DNA from: Myxococcus dinghuensis
GTDB lineage: Bacteria > Myxococcota > Myxococcia > Myxococcales > Myxococcaceae
Length of the DNA stretch: 64,000 nucleotides
Reading direction: 5' to 3'
Assembly: GCF_024198235.1 (NCBI RefSeq)
Contig: NZ_JAKCFB010000010.1
Location: 62,001 to 126,000 of the forward strand
Within the stretch, counting starts at the first letter, position 1. Every line of letters starts with the position of its first letter. Below, in pieces: positions 2,809 through 7,155 of the stretch. The translations under genes and the position numbers were made by a program. Under the pieces are notes generated by a model that had not been told where the DNA came from, searched no databases, and saw nothing but the letters and a program-made list of their open reading frames with translations.

Positions 2809-3588
2809 ATGCACGGCCACGACGAAGAACACCACCATCCCCGGATTCCCCAGGCTTCCCGCATCGAGCGCGCCCGCGTGCTCGTCGTGGGGGCAGGGGG
2901 GCTCGGTTGTCCCGCGTCGCTGGCGCTCGCGCAGGCGGGTGTCGGCCACCTGACGCTGGCGGACCCGGACCGGGTGGACGTGACGAACCTCCCCCGCCAG
3001 CTCTGGCACCGGCCCGGGGACGTGGGGCGCAACAAGGCGGAGTCCGCGGCGGCGGGGCTCGCGCGCGCCTTCCCCGCGCTGACGACGGACGTGGTGCCCG
3101 AGCGCGTGGACGCGGACAACGTCGAGGGCCTGTTCCGCGCGCACGACGTCGTCATCGACGCGACGGACGGCGTGGCGACGAAGTTCTTCCTGTCGGACGT
3201 CGCGGTGCTCACGGGCGTCCCGCTCGTCTACGGCGGGGTGCTGCGGATGCAGGGCCAGGCCATGCGGGTGGAGCCGGGCGGGCCCTGTCTGCGGTGTCTC
3301 TACGAGGCGCCTCCGCCGCCGGACGCGGTGCCCACGTGCGCGCAGGCCGGGGTGCTCGGCTCGCTCGCGGGGCTGGTGGGCGCGGTGCAGGCGCTGCTGT
3401 CGCTGGAGCTCCTGGCGGGGGTCGCCCGGCGCGTGCCCGGCGAGGCGTCGCTGCACGTGCTCGACGCGTCGTCGCTCACGGGCCGGCTCACGCGCGTGCG
3501 GCGGGCGGAGGACTGCGCCGGCTGCCTCGTCACGCAGGTGCCGCCGTTCCCCGAGGACGCGGGAGAGGGAGGGGCCTGTGCGCGCTGA
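2809..3588 (+). CDS. ThiF/MoeB (E1-like) adenylyltransferase lacking the N-terminal Arg-finger segment
   Basis: E1-like enzyme of 259 residues expected to adenylate the C-terminal Gly-Gly of a ubiquitin-fold sulfur carrier. It has the Rossmann loop GAGGLG (28-33), the ATP-contacting run N60-L-P-R63-Q and K76, acidic DATD (117-120), zinc Cys pairs C160/C163 and C236/C239, and a conserved Cys in PTCAQAGVLG (C177). The usual MoeB/ThiF N-terminus with the RYSRQ arginine motif is missing: a short His/acidic stretch leads straight into the Rossmann fold. That motif is found in the separate protein encoded at 4118. First gene of a five-gene sulfur-carrier cassette; its end overlaps the TusA gene by 11 bases. 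The ATG at 2809 was chosen as the only start giving a sensible N-terminus. Confidence 0.9.
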   Translation: MHGHDEEHHHPRIPQASRIERARVLVVGAGGLGCPASLALAQAGVGHLTLADPDRVDVTNLPRQLWHRPGDVGRNKAESAAAGLARAFPALTTDVVPERVDADNVEGLFRAHDVVIDATDGVATKFFLSDVAVLTGVPLVYGGVLRMQGQAMRVEPGGPCLRCLYEAPPPPDAVPTCAQAGVLGSLAGLVGAVQALLSLELLAGVARRVPGEASLHVLDASSLTGRLTRVRRAEDCAGCLVTQVPPFPEDAGEGGACAR

Positions 3589-3835
3589 GGACGTCGGCGA
3601 GGGCGTGGGGGCGACGCTGGACATCACCCGCGAGGTCTGTCCGATGACCTACGTGCGCACCAAGCTGAAGCTGGAGGCGCTCGAGGCCGGGGCCCTGCTG
3701 GAGGTCATCCTCCGGGGCGCGGAGCCGCTGAAGAACGTGCCACGCAACGCGAGCGAGGAGGGGCACGTCGTCGTGTCGCTCGACGCCCGCCCGGACGGGA
3801 CGCACCGGCTGGTGCTTCGCAAGCAGGGACGCTGA
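3578..3835 (+). CDS. TusA/SirA-family sulfurtransferase
   Basis: Small 85-residue protein of the TusA fold, which carries persulfide sulfur on a conserved Cys. The family signature appears as REVCPMTYVRTKLKLEALE, with the sulfur-carrying Cys in CPM near residue 22. GTG start at 3578, preceded by a GA-rich ribosome site inside the end of the thiF-like gene and overlapping it by 11 bases. Known family role: relay of sulfur between a donor and an acceptor. Here it probably supplies sulfur to the MoaD-like carrier activated by the neighbouring E1-like protein (inference from context). Confidence 0.9.
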   Translation: MRAEDVGEGVGATLDITREVCPMTYVRTKLKLEALEAGALLEVILRGAEPLKNVPRNASEEGHVVVSLDARPDGTHRLVLRKQGR

Positions 3836-3838
3836 GCC

Positions 3839-4111
3839 ATGGCGACCATCCGCATCCCCACGACGATGCGCGCGCTGACGCGCAACCAGGCGGAGGTGGA
3901 GGCCTCCGGCGCGACCGTGCGCGAGGTGCTCCGGGACCTCGACGCGCGCTACCCCGGCCTGGGGACCCGGTTGCTGGACGAGCGCGGCGCGGTGAGGCGG
4001 TACGTGAACGTCTTCCTCAACGACGAGGACATCCGCGGCCTCGCGGAGCTGGACACGCCGGTGCGCGACGCGGATCGGCTCACCCTGATCCCCGCGATGG
4101 CGGGAGGCTGA
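3839..4111 (+). CDS. MoaD/ThiS-family ubiquitin-like sulfur carrier
   Basis: Ubiquitin-fold sulfur carrier of 90 residues ending in the diagnostic Gly-Gly (IPAMAGG). It has the usual MoaD-like pattern: TVREVLRDLDARYPG helix, a central VNVFLNDEDIR strand-turn and DRLTLIPAMAGG at the end. The exposed C-terminus needs no trimming to become E1-competent. It lies 3 bases after the TusA gene and 6 bases before the second E1-like gene. By analogy with CysO of actinobacteria it may become a thiocarboxylate that gives sulfur to an amino-acid or cofactor pathway; its exact acceptor is not shown by the sequence. Confidence 0.92.
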   Translation: MATIRIPTTMRALTRNQAEVEASGATVREVLRDLDARYPGLGTRLLDERGAVRRYVNVFLNDEDIRGLAELDTPVRDADRLTLIPAMAGG

Positions 4112-4117
4112 CGCTCC

Positions 4118-4759
4118 ATGGCCCTGCGAGAAGATCAGATCCTCCGCTATTCGCGGCAGATCCTCCTGAAGGACGTGGGGGGCCGCGGGCAGGAGGCGCT
4201 GCTGGCGGGGGGCGCGCGCGTGGACGCGACGGGGGCGGCGGGGATGACCGCGGCCGCGTACCTCGCCGGCGGCGGTACACCCGTGTCGGCGGTGGGCGCG
4301 TTGACGCTGGGCCCGTGGGCCCCTGGCTTCCTGGTGGCGGCCCGGGACATCGGGCAGCCGGTGACGACGACCCTGGCCCGCGAGGTGCCGGCCCTGAACC
4401 CGGACGCCGCCGGCACCGGGCGAGGCGAGGGGCTGATCGCGGAGCTGCCCACGGCGTGGAGCGGCGAGGCGCCGTGGGTGGCCCTGTGCGGCGATGGCTT
4501 CCGCGCGGGCGTCGTCTACCGGGGGCCCCAGGGATGCCTCTGGTGCTTCGGCGAGACGGTGCGCCACCTGGACTCGCCGCCGGACGGGGCGCTCGGCGTG
4601 GCGGTGGGCGCGCTGGGGGCGCTCGTGTTCCAGCGGCTGCGGCTGGGGGTGGGACCCTCGCTGGGAGGCTGCTGGCTGAGGGCGCCCGGAGTGCTGGAGG
4701 ACATGGCCCTGCGGCGATGTGCCCGGTGCGCCGCGAAGGCGGCGCCGGACGCGCCGTGA
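4118..4759 (+). CDS. degenerate ThiF/MoeB-like protein, probable E1 partner subunit
   Basis: A 213-residue protein opening with the N-terminal E1 signature ILRYSRQILLKDVGGRGQE, including R10, which aligns with the arginine that in MoeB reaches into the ATP site of the other subunit. The following Rossmann segment is decayed: instead of GxGGxG it reads DATGAAG, and the N-L-x-R-Q motif, the lysine and the conserved Cys of active enzymes are absent. Two zinc-type pairs remain (C140/C143 and C201/C204). It therefore looks catalytically dead but able to dimerise. Its features complement those of the E1-like protein at 2809, suggesting a heterodimer. Its stop overlaps the JAMM gene start (GTGA). 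Confidence 0.82.
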   Translation: MALREDQILRYSRQILLKDVGGRGQEALLAGGARVDATGAAGMTAAAYLAGGGTPVSAVGALTLGPWAPGFLVAARDIGQPVTTTLAREVPALNPDAAGTGRGEGLIAELPTAWSGEAPWVALCGDGFRAGVVYRGPQGCLWCFGETVRHLDSPPDGALGVAVGALGALVFQRLRLGVGPSLGGCWLRAPGVLEDMALRRCARCAAKAAPDAP

Positions 4760-5184
4760 CGCCCTGGCCGGACGGGCGCTGGCCCCAGGCCGTGCGCGAG
4801 GCCATCGTCCGGCACCTGGAGGCGTGCTACCCGGAGGAGGGGTGCGGGGTCGTCCTCCAGTCGAACCCGTCCGGGGACTGGCGCGTGTGCCCGCTGCGCA
4901 ACGCGTCCCCGTGCCCGGCCGTGGCCTACGCCTTCTCACCCGGGGAGTGGCTCGCCCTCTGCATCCAGGCGGAGGCGCGGGGAGAACGGGTCGTGTCCGT
5001 CTTCCACTCCCATGTAGATGCGCCTGCGACTTTCTCCGGCGTGGACCGTGACTTAGCTGCGCCAGACGGGCAGCCGTTGCTGCCCGATGTTTCCTACCTC
5101 ATCGCATCCGTACACCGGGGCTGTGTGACCTGGGTGTCCGAGTACGTGTGGCGGGATGGAGATTTTCAGGCGCAACGGGTCTGA
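4756..5184 (+). CDS. JAMM/M67-family zinc metallopeptidase (Mec-like)
   Basis: 142-residue JAB/JAMM isopeptidase. The full zinc motif is present: E28 in PEEGCG, then H84-S-H86, seven residues, S94 and D97. Bacterial members near MoaD-like genes, such as Mec of mycobacteria, release cysteine or remove residues after the Gly-Gly of the carrier. GTG start at 4756 overlaps the preceding stop by 4 bases; this start places the PEEGCG motif at the normal distance from the N-terminus. Last gene of the five-gene cassette; it would process or recycle the MoaD-like carrier (inference). Confidence 0.92.
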   Translation: MTPWPDGRWPQAVREAIVRHLEACYPEEGCGVVLQSNPSGDWRVCPLRNASPCPAVAYAFSPGEWLALCIQAEARGERVVSVFHSHVDAPATFSGVDRDLAAPDGQPLLPDVSYLIASVHRGCVTWVSEYVWRDGDFQAQRV

Positions 5185-5376: not shown

Positions 5377-6153
5377 ATGGCCTCCAACACTGGATTCACC
5401 CTCTGGCTGACCGGCATGTCCGGTACCGGGAAGAGCACCACCGCCGCCTACATCGCGGCGAGGCTCCGGCAGGTCGGCCGCAATGTGGAGATCCTCGACG
5501 AGGGCGACCTCGCGGATGAGCTCTGGGCGGGGCTGGGTGACTCGAAGGAGGAGCGCAATACCATCGCGGGGCGTCTGGGGTACGTGGCCAACGTGCTGAC
5601 CCGCAACGGCGTGGCGGCGCTGGTGCCGTGCGTGAGCCCGTACAAGGCGAAGCGCGAGGAGAACCGCCGCAGCATCGGCCGGTACGTCGAGGTCTACGTC
5701 GACTGCCCCACCGAGAAGCTCATCGAGCGCGACAGCTCGGGCCGCTACAAGAAGGCGCTCAACGGGGAGATCCCCAACTTCATCGGCATCACGGAGCCGT
5801 ACGAGCCGCCCACCTCGCCCGAGGTGACGATCCACTCCGACGTGGAGTCGGTGGAGGACGGCGCGGCGAAGATCTTCCAGTCGCTGCTCGACCTCGGCTA
5901 CATGTCGACGGAGGAGCTGAAGATCATCACCGGCAAGAAGATGAAGGCCAACCCGCTCCCGGAGAAGGGTGAGAAGCCGGAGAAGGGCGAGCCCAAGGCG
6001 CGGCGCGCGGAGGCGGCGCCCAAGGCGGCCGGTGGCGCGAAGGCGGCGGCCAAGACGGACAAGGGCGCCAAGGCGCGTCCGGCGACCCGGGCGGCCCGCG
6101 TGGCGAAGCCGGCGACGGCGGCCAAGAAGCCCGCGAAGCGCAAGGTCCGCTGA
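5377..6153 (+). CDS. cysC: adenylyl-sulfate kinase family protein with Lys/Ala-rich tail
   Basis: About 258 residues. The CysC-like kinase core has a P-loop (GMSGTGKST, 13-21) and the family block SPYKAKREENRR followed by YKKALNGEIPNFIGITEPYEPP, which match APS kinase regions for nucleotide and product binding. The substrate-side motif normally read as DGDNxRxGL is altered to LDEGDLADELWAGLG, so the phosphate acceptor may not be plain APS. From about residue 195 a Lys/Ala/Pro-rich basic tail ending KKPAKRKVR resembles histone-H1-like tails and is not part of the normal enzyme. ATG at 5377 was chosen because GGGAG lies about 12 bases upstream; the in-frame TTG at 5365 abuts that ribosome site. 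No cysD/cysN in the window. Confidence 0.82.
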   Translation: MASNTGFTLWLTGMSGTGKSTTAAYIAARLRQVGRNVEILDEGDLADELWAGLGDSKEERNTIAGRLGYVANVLTRNGVAALVPCVSPYKAKREENRRSIGRYVEVYVDCPTEKLIERDSSGRYKKALNGEIPNFIGITEPYEPPTSPEVTIHSDVESVEDGAAKIFQSLLDLGYMSTEELKIITGKKMKANPLPEKGEKPEKGEPKARRAEAAPKAAGGAKAAAKTDKGAKARPATRAARVAKPATAAKKPAKRKVR

Positions 6154-6261: not shown

Positions 6262-7155
6262 ATGTTGAGCCCCGAGCGAATCCAGGCCCTGTGTGAGTCG
6301 TCCCGTCCGAAGCTGGAGGCCATGCGCGCGGCGCTGCGGGCCCATGGCAGCGCGCTGGTCGCGTTCTCCGGCGGCGTGGACTCGACGTTCGTCTTGAAGG
6401 TGGCGGTGGAGGAGCTGGGCGAGCGGGCGCTGGCGCTCACGGCGCTGTCGGCGTCCGTGGCGCCGGAGGAGGCCGAGGAGGCGCGGGCGCTGGCGGCGCG
6501 GCTGGGCGCCCGGCACGTGGTGGTGAGCAGCAACGAGCTGGCGAACCCGCAGTACGCGGCCAACCCCACCAACCGCTGCTACTTCTGCAAGACGGAGCTT
6601 TACGACCTGTGCGAGGCCCGGCGCCAGGAGCTGGGGATGGCGGTGGTGCTGGACGGCTTCAACGCGGACGACTTCAAGGATCACCGCCCGGGACACAAGG
6701 CCGCGCGGGAGCACGCGGTGGTGTCGCCCCTGGCGGCCGCGGGGCTGACGAAGGACGAGATCCGCGCGTGGAGCCAGTCGCTGGGGCTGCCCACGTGGGA
6801 CAAGCCGCAGATGGCGTGCCTGGCGTCGCGGATTCCGTACGGCACGTCGGTGACGCGGGATCGGCTGCTGCAGATCGCCGCGGCGGAGTCGGAGCTGCGC
6901 AAGGCGGGCTTCCGGCAGTTCCGCGTGCGCTACCACGGCGAGGTGGCCCGGCTGGAGGTCGCGGCGGAGGAGTACGAGCGCTTCCTCCAGGCGGACGTGC
7001 GCCAGCGGATCAACACCGCGTTCCTGGCGCTGGGGTTCAAGTTCGTGGCGCTGGATCTGGAACCCTTCCGGTCCGGCCGCATGAACGAGGCCGCGGGCGT
7101 CACGAAGCCCGCGACCCAGGGCGCCACGGGCTTCGCGCTGCCGGTCGTGAGCTGA
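6262..7155 (+). CDS. larE: ATP-dependent sulfur transferase LarE family
   Basis: PP-loop ATPase of 297 residues. SGGVDST (36-42) is the pyrophosphatase loop. Family knowledge: LarE turns carboxylates of the nickel-pincer cofactor precursor into thiocarboxylates, using a sacrificial Cys or a cluster-bound sulfide. Here three Cys are placed to matter: C106 and C109 in NRCYFCK and C186 in MACLASRIPYGT, a pattern that suggests an Fe-S-type rather than single-use enzyme (inference). No larA, larB or larC is in the window. A good ribosome site (TAGGAG) precedes the ATG. It shares a sulfur theme with the genes from 2809 to 6153. Confidence 0.9.
   Translation: MLSPERIQALCESSRPKLEAMRAALRAHGSALVAFSGGVDSTFVLKVAVEELGERALALTALSASVAPEEAEEARALAARLGARHVVVSSNELANPQYAANPTNRCYFCKTELYDLCEARRQELGMAVVLDGFNADDFKDHRPGHKAAREHAVVSPLAAAGLTKDEIRAWSQSLGLPTWDKPQMACLASRIPYGTSVTRDRLLQIAAAESELRKAGFRQFRVRYHGEVARLEVAAEEYERFLQADVRQRINTAFLALGFKFVALDLEPFRSGRMNEAAGVTKPATQGATGFALPVVS

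Follow-up and report, generated by a model that had tools for sequence, protein, structure and literature searches.

How the symmetric E1 enzymes of bacteria gave rise to the asymmetric E1 enzymes of eukaryotes is usually argued from eukaryotic proteins. In MoeB and ThiF a single chain contains both the N-terminal arm and the ATP site, and the homodimers are symmetric, with two sites; the eukaryotic enzymes SAE1-UBA2 and NAE1(APPBP1)-UBA3 consist of an inactive and an active subunit. In UBA1, Arg57 is presumably located in the inactive domain. Arg57 and Arg515 of human UBA1 hold the gamma-phosphate site (PMC12355090, in part). MoeB Arg14 and ThiF Arg11 are cross-subunit arginine fingers, and in the yeast ThiF-fold heterodimer Tcd1-Tcd2 an inactive paralogue lends its finger Arg59 to the active one, the substrate being tRNA t6A and not a carrier protein (PMC13139853, in part). 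Gene neighborhoods with a carrier, a JAB protease, a rhodanese-less E1-like protein, SirA (TusA family) and adenylylsulfate kinase were compiled by Iyer, Burroughs and Aravind in 2006 (Table 1, rows 4c and 4e), row 4c including cysteine synthase (PMC1779556, in part). In the mycobacterial CysO-CysM-Mec+ system, sulfur is delivered by a carrier with a C-terminal thiocarboxylate to the synthase CysM, and a protease frees the cysteine (PMC3227635, in part). A cassette with likeness to these systems is located at positions 2809-5184 of the window, a stretch of 64,000 nucleotides from Myxococcus dinghuensis (contig NZ_JAKCFB010000010.1). It contains two genes for E1-like proteins, named E1A and E1B in the following, which are encoded with a TusA-like, a MoaD-like and a JAMM protein on the plus strand in the order E1A, TusA, MoaD-like, E1B, JAMM.

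With a probability of about 0.72, as estimated from sequence comparisons and structure models, E1A and E1B would constitute a bacterial E1 heterodimer of asymmetric type that serves a relay from sulfate to cysteine. The E1 split is real, widely conserved and under purifying selection, with a predicted catalytic half and a dead half predicted to donate an arginine, within a known type of sulfur-carrier operon. The data show the complementary residue loss and its conservation, the co-decay, the joint absence, the fold, purifying selection and the gene context, and physical pairing and catalysis are inferred.

E1A (2809-3588, plus strand, 259 aa) was classified as a ThiF/MoeB-like adenylyltransferase (PF00899, E 7.8e-61), the match being restricted to profile positions 16-235 and covering 17-235 of the protein. 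It holds the ATP loop GAGGLG (residues 28-33, 2890-2907), N60 and R63 in the NLPR segment of the NLxRQ motif (2986-2997), K76, D117, D120 and the conserved C177 (3337-3339), and lacks the N-terminal RYxRQ arm, as the preliminary description of this DNA had read for the loop, N60, R63, K76, the cysteine and the arm. In the alignment to MoeB, the equivalents of G41, N70, R73, K86, D127, D130 and C187 were present, and the MoeB arm had no counterpart. The loop glycines, N60, R63, K76, D117, D120 and four zinc-type cysteines were invariant in 49 of 49 aligned rows; C177 was conserved in 48 and replaced by threonine in one. Loci L090, L091, L119 and L121 and the unsplit E1s were excluded from these rows. 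E1B (4118-4759, plus strand, 213 aa) is a degenerate ThiF-like protein and the proposed inactive donor of the arginine arm. It scored 16.4 bits against PF00899, below the cut-off of 28.1, with a match restricted to profile positions 1-44, hence the two proteins cover complementary parts of the ThiF profile. None of the ATP-site residues of E1A and no conserved cysteine was found in E1B, while an RYSRQ arm is present at residues 10-14 (4145-4159). Compared with MoeB, it has the equivalents of R11 and R14, and all other listed site residues are gone. The cross-subunit arginine had at first been assigned to R10; the equivalent of MoeB Arg14, the second arginine of RYNRQ, is R13 (codon 4154-4156). 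R10 was ruled out as the key residue: it is glutamine in locus L125 (R10 in 47 of 48 rows), versus an R13 constant in 48 of 48 rows. Only R13, Q25 and G53 were invariant over these 48 rows, from which L100, L103, L119 and L121 (partial or doubtful ends) and the arm-less L090 and L091 were left out. The mean frequency of the top residue was 0.76 in the arm region and 0.36 in the middle part. Two CxxC pairs described earlier in E1B occur indeed at 140/143 and 201/204 in the window, the second one not being a family trait (C204 in 13 of 48 rows). The length of E1B varies from 213 aa in the window to 148 (L051), 123 (L101), 120 (L054) and 88 aa (L050), with the arm present in each.

The likeness to E. 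coli MoeB and ThiF is divided: E1A shares the ATP-site residues and the fold, E1B the arm and the fold. Neither protein unites the ATP loop, the N/R/K/D residues and RYxRQ as one-chain enzymes do, and the site residues and the arginine arm have been lost in complementary fashion between the two relatives, as in an asymmetric heterodimeric E1. A start codon upstream of the E1A start was considered as a source of a hidden arm and rejected: the open frame back to position 2521 contains the string ARYSH, and a similar string occurs only in the closest relative L036 and not in other members of the genus. The profile of the E1B arm gave no match upstream of arm-less E1A in 60 loci. Several loci deviate in gene structure. 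In L050 (7347-8706) and L051 (7388-8716), the two loci with E1Bs of 88 and 148 aa, a single reading frame encodes a fusion of E1A and TusA; likewise, a single frame encodes a fusion of E1B and JAMM in L047 (3360-4361). Diverged cassettes were observed in the small genomes G153 and G154 (loci L181 and L182), both outside the two alignments, with an RYLRQ arm in E1B and an E1A which, inspected by eye, has no conserved cysteine; MoaD and TusA were not found in the stretch available for these cassettes.

A search of genomes for the same pair, suggested in the preliminary description, yielded 105 genomes with both genes. In a first search, 55 of 61 relatives had given an E1B match, and with a profile the number was 163 of 195 genomes across the phylum; ordinary MoeB matches are included in both counts. 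One locus per genome was read (75, then 30 of 30 further), and all pairs belonged to the order of the window within the Myxococcota (families f1, f2 and f5-f9). Carriers include Myxococcus, Pyxidicoccus, Corallococcus, Archangium and Hyalangium; in Myxococcus xanthus (contigs L149 and L152) E1B spans a contig break. Locus L094 (genome G109) was not counted as a pair, with E1B at the contig end and E1A not visible. Among the 103 readable N-termini of E1A no real RYxRQ arm was detected, the gene being cut at the stretch end in the other two, L009 and L263. An RHGRA string in L108 was discarded as E1A arm, as it belongs to a different frame, within the cysteine synthase gene upstream. The finger arginine of E1B, in the motif [RQ]-[YFWH]-x-R, was present in 103 of the 105 pairs. 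In all 105 genomes the E1B frame was open over the matched region, with a contig end cutting it in four. With this recurrence, the complementary arrangement is far past chance. Named genomes were scanned with patterns derived from close relatives, and of the 40 loci obtained only L127, L160, L163, L164 and L165 had labels from outside the phylum; this was one scan, and splits in other groups remain compatible with its result. L160, L164 and L165 are single arm-bearing E1s. In L163 (613-880), from the Spirochaetales, the start of an arm-bearing E1 breaks off beside a TusA-like stretch, either a pseudogene or a sequencing fault. L127, titled Comamonas sp. KCTC 72670, contains a Myxococcus-like cassette with a 75 % identical E1B and is probably a mislabelled or mixed genome.

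In genus g33, E1A and E1B fail together. Three of its genomes possess an intact pair (L088, L278 and L279). The only two arm-less E1Bs among the 105 occur in L090 (G139) and L091 (G137), and it is in these that the E1A has HLAHQ or RLPQP in place of NLxRQ, no conserved cysteine and TG in place of the TD motif; TusA was not found in either locus. Two further genomes, G138 and G140, have kept MoaD, JAMM, adenylylsulfate kinase and LarE, and no E1A, TusA or E1B was present in the 14-kb stretch; the only E1 they yielded at E 1e-30 is of the MoeB type and carries the arm. In this genus a further MoaD-like carrier, with 56-59 % identity to that of the window, is encoded apart from the cassette (L245 6196-6465, at G139:C1:8505195, as well as in G138 and G140). 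E1 matches at E 1e-30 were screened in 20 genomes. Eleven had no E1B (G033, G106, G108, G133, G134, G135, G138, G140, G148, G152, G155), and the matches read in them were all arm-bearing E1s, that of G155 without the second arginine. Pairs are present in G153, G154, G031 and G037; G137 and G139 are the genomes with decayed pairs, and the E1 of G163 is unsplit. G114 has an arm-less E1A on a contig ending at TusA, and G151 gave no match. Among the tabulated unsplit E1s, the arm segment was observed in 27 of 27 and the second arginine in 25; the ThiF-family proteins L003-L005 from the genome of the window lie outside this set. G163, of the same class and another order, has the unsplit cassette CysK-E1-TusA-MoaD-CysM with the arm RHSRQ. 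The ordinary arm-bearing MoeB type might itself be the partner of E1A, leaving E1B to compete or regulate, and the genome of the window encodes a candidate at C1:695365 (open frame of 403 aa, arm RYRRH). This is very improbable, as E1B is the conserved neighbor of E1A, and G138, G140, G033, G106, G108, G133, G135 and G148 have the MoeB type with neither E1B nor an arm-less E1A.

The ratio of non-synonymous to synonymous substitution rates (dN/dS), determined within the genus from 24 genomes, was 0.207 for E1B, 0.075 for the E1B arm and 0.158 for E1A. The idea that E1B is a functionless decaying copy could be based on the loss of every ATP-site residue, the range in length from 88 to more than 210 aa and the long branches. 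The selection result refutes it within the genus at least, and with an R13 constant in all aligned rows, a frame open in 105 genomes and a confidently predicted fold it retains hardly any probability. In a tree of 47 sequences, E1B formed one group (support 100/99) and E1A one group (79/85), the root not being settled. The origin of these sequences is most simply explained by a single split and complementary loss.

AlphaFold2 models, built from the alignments of this analysis, had a mean confidence (pLDDT) of 94.6 for E1B and 91.7 for E1A, and both models show the ThiF fold. The E1A model resembled ThiF (Z 31.4) and MoeB (Z 31.0); for E1B the best values were obtained with ThiF/MoeB (Z 18.2), followed by the SUMO E1 chain 1y8q_C at Z 17.6. 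Fifteen PDB entries of SUMO or NEDD8 E1 heterodimers were common to both lists. The best chain was the catalytic one for E1A in 15 of 15 and the other subunit for E1B in 15 of 15, the catalytic chains being those named for the entry or its sequence group, or else assigned by chain alternation. For single-chain E1s the outcome was mixed, with E1B placed on the inactive half in some entries and on the active half in others. The comparison of these predicted folds is evidence for a likeness of the halves to E1 subunits, not for binding. The inactive and active subunits of SAE1-UBA2 and NAE1(APPBP1)-UBA3 resemble E1B and E1A, respectively. The eukaryotic E1s possess in addition a catalytic-cysteine half domain and a ubiquitin-fold domain (UFD); neither was found here, and no other Pfam family scored above the cut-off in E1A.

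The five genes are tightly packed, as initially noted, with overlaps or with gaps of at most 6 bases: the TusA-like sulfurtransferase (3578-3835, plus strand, GTG start, CPMT motif, PF01206 E 4.4e-17) overlaps E1A by 11 bases, the MoaD/ThiS/SAMP-like carrier (3839-4111, plus strand, C-terminus AMAGG, ThiS family PF02597 E 1.8e-16) follows after a 3-base gap, E1B after a 6-base gap, and the JAMM/Prok-JAB metalloprotease (4756-5184, plus strand, PF14464 E 6.6e-21) with a GTGA overlap. In the latter, the pattern HSH...S..D was spotted by eye, which we take to be the JAMM motif. The unit is longer than the five genes first recognized. It continues on the plus strand with the adenylylsulfate (APS) kinase CysC (5377-6153, TIGR00455 159.4 bits, cut-off 138.7; the start codon is uncertain, TTG 5365 or ATG 5377) and LarE, an ATP-dependent sacrificial sulfur transferase (6262-7155, TIGR00268 318.5 bits, cut-off 150), and among relatives, the majority of the longer loci have both genes behind the pair as well. 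In ten loci (L043, L044, L050, L054, L097, L098, L101, L102, L103, L108) a CysM-type gene is situated between E1B and JAMM; that of L043 scored 340 bits with TIGR01138, below the cut-off of 394.2. With this gene beside E1B, cysteine would be built on the carrier and freed by JAMM, as in CysO-CysM-Mec+. The window cassette has no CysM, and the nearest cysteine synthase of its own genome (41 % identical) is located elsewhere. In the same ten loci, and likewise in L169, E1A is preceded by another cysteine synthase-like gene in addition to the one behind E1B or MoaD, and the two may bracket the ancestral cassette. In L044 (2665-3489) pieces of the cysteine synthase gene are repeated, which may reflect a local duplication or a faulty assembly.

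Both a sulfur relay and a protein-modifying module had been considered from the start. For a modifier of the SAMP/desampylase type, with the carrier conjugated to proteins and removed by JAMM, one may quote the near hit of the carrier to the SAMP1 model (59.2 bits, cut-off 60), the JAMM hit to the desampylase model (47.3 bits, cut-off 130), neither of which passes, and the conserved C177 of E1A. The sulfur side is favored by the neighboring genes for APS kinase and LarE and by the cysteine synthase gene next to E1B in ten loci; TusA is also a neighbor, and several cassettes have no JAMM. Judged by these gene contents, a function in sulfate assimilation and the synthesis of cysteine fits better, and protein modification is improbable.

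The heterodimer in the sulfur relay has to be weighed against several observations. For MoeB and ThiF the arginine finger is reported to be dispensable, the R59A change of yeast Tcd1 costs only 26 %, and E. coli TcdA has no arginine finger (PMC13139853, in part); E1A may thus act alone. The E1B body is under selection in Myxococcus as well (dN/dS 0.12-0.34), hence E1B may do more than donate an arginine. The support for the E1A group is modest, E1A fits also the SAE1-only entry 8vy5 (Z 26.0 versus 15.1 for E1B), two of the 27 unsplit E1s have no second arginine, and L005 in the genome of the window shows no arm. The co-decay in g33 is probably one event in one genus, thus the independent events are few. 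MoaD is missing in 23 of 75 and 9 of 30 cassettes, TusA or JAMM in some, and with the window MoaD as query no relative was detected at E 0.001 in the MoaD-less genomes G030, G032, G041 and G047. Proteins of the Pfam ThiS family were found in six of six MoaD-less genomes searched. An overlooked carrier gene within such cassettes was sought in 16 loci, and no convincing Gly-Gly frame emerged. TusA as the Gly-Gly carrier of MoaD-less cassettes was also rejected: among the TusAs listed, a GG end occurs only in L016, L092 and L121, that of L092 (4952-5173) reading Lys-Gly-Gly in a cassette without MoaD. A link between the loss of TusA and of the E1A cysteine was dropped, as L054, L101-L103, L098 and L108 have no TusA and keep the cysteine.

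One alternative is that E1A alone is a finger-less homodimer like TcdA, with E1B as an accessory protein docking TusA, CysM or JAMM and using its arm otherwise. The dispensable fingers, the selection on the E1B body and the E1B-JAMM fusion agree with it. In opposition stand that no readable pair has the arm and the ATP site in the same protein, that the segment of E1B conserved best is the arm with R13, retained even in a protein reduced to 88 aa, and that both proteins decay or vanish together in g33; E1A acting alone appears unlikely, if worth keeping in mind. An obligate heterodimer with one ATP site and one arginine had been proposed originally. The division into ATP site and arginine is well supported by the complementary loss in the 105 genomes, the co-decay in two, the joint absence in two and the fold; from the literature on dispensable fingers, obligate may be too strong a term, and E1B may be needed chiefly for completing the dimer.

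For the asymmetric heterodimer, the following course of reaction is envisaged. E1A and E1B would descend from the ThiF/MoeB-type E1 family and now pair with each other. E1A would bind ATP-Mg, as well as the MoaD-like carrier by its Gly-Gly tail, and form the acyl-adenylate. E1B, without its own ATP site, would retain the E1 fold mainly for pairing with E1A, and its N-terminal arm is expected to reach the ATP phosphates in E1A via R13, by analogy to MoeB and ThiF. TusA is the likely persulfide donor for the conversion of the carrier adenylate to the thiocarboxylate. A CysM-type synthase would put the sulfur on activated serine on the carrier, and JAMM would cut the cysteine off, as in CysO/CysM/Mec+. 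For Myxococcus itself, with a cassette without CysM, this sulfur acceptor is presumed.

The window cassette has the content of row 4e of Iyer et al., a carrier, JAB, E1-like protein and SirA/TusA near APS kinase, in which 'E1-like protein' is listed in the singular; 'two E1' and 'Myxococcus' do not appear in the main text (PMC1779556, in part). CysO activation is carried out by MoeZR, a single chain that includes a rhodanese domain. In the present cassette the E1 is split, TusA is nearby and a rhodanese domain is absent. The difference to MoeB and ThiF is the distribution over two genes with one half dead. The cassette type is already known with a single E1. A two-protein bacterial E1 of this kind was not found described in the open literature searched, which did not cover the natural history of the E1 superfamily by Burroughs et al. 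(about 2009), where it may be mentioned.

The bacterial split, seen in one bacterial order only, looks independent of the eukaryotic one. The odds are slightly in favor of a wider statement: bacteria would have evolved independently an E1 of two obligate subunits, one of them dead, shrinking and in one lineage reduced almost to an arginine-finger peptide of 88 residues, on the same route from homodimer to active and inactive subunits as the eukaryotic E1s, with the stages unsplit, split, shrunken, co-decayed and gone within one class. A bacterial lineage seems to have made the same move as the eukaryotes, and its living relatives show in-between stages as well as losses; the genus includes Myxococcus xanthus, a bacterium used in the laboratory. 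A function is hereby proposed for a protein below the Pfam ThiF cut-off and tied to sulfur assimilation. The system offers a direct test of the purpose of the inactive half and of the arginine finger, reported to be non-essential in MoeB and ThiF.

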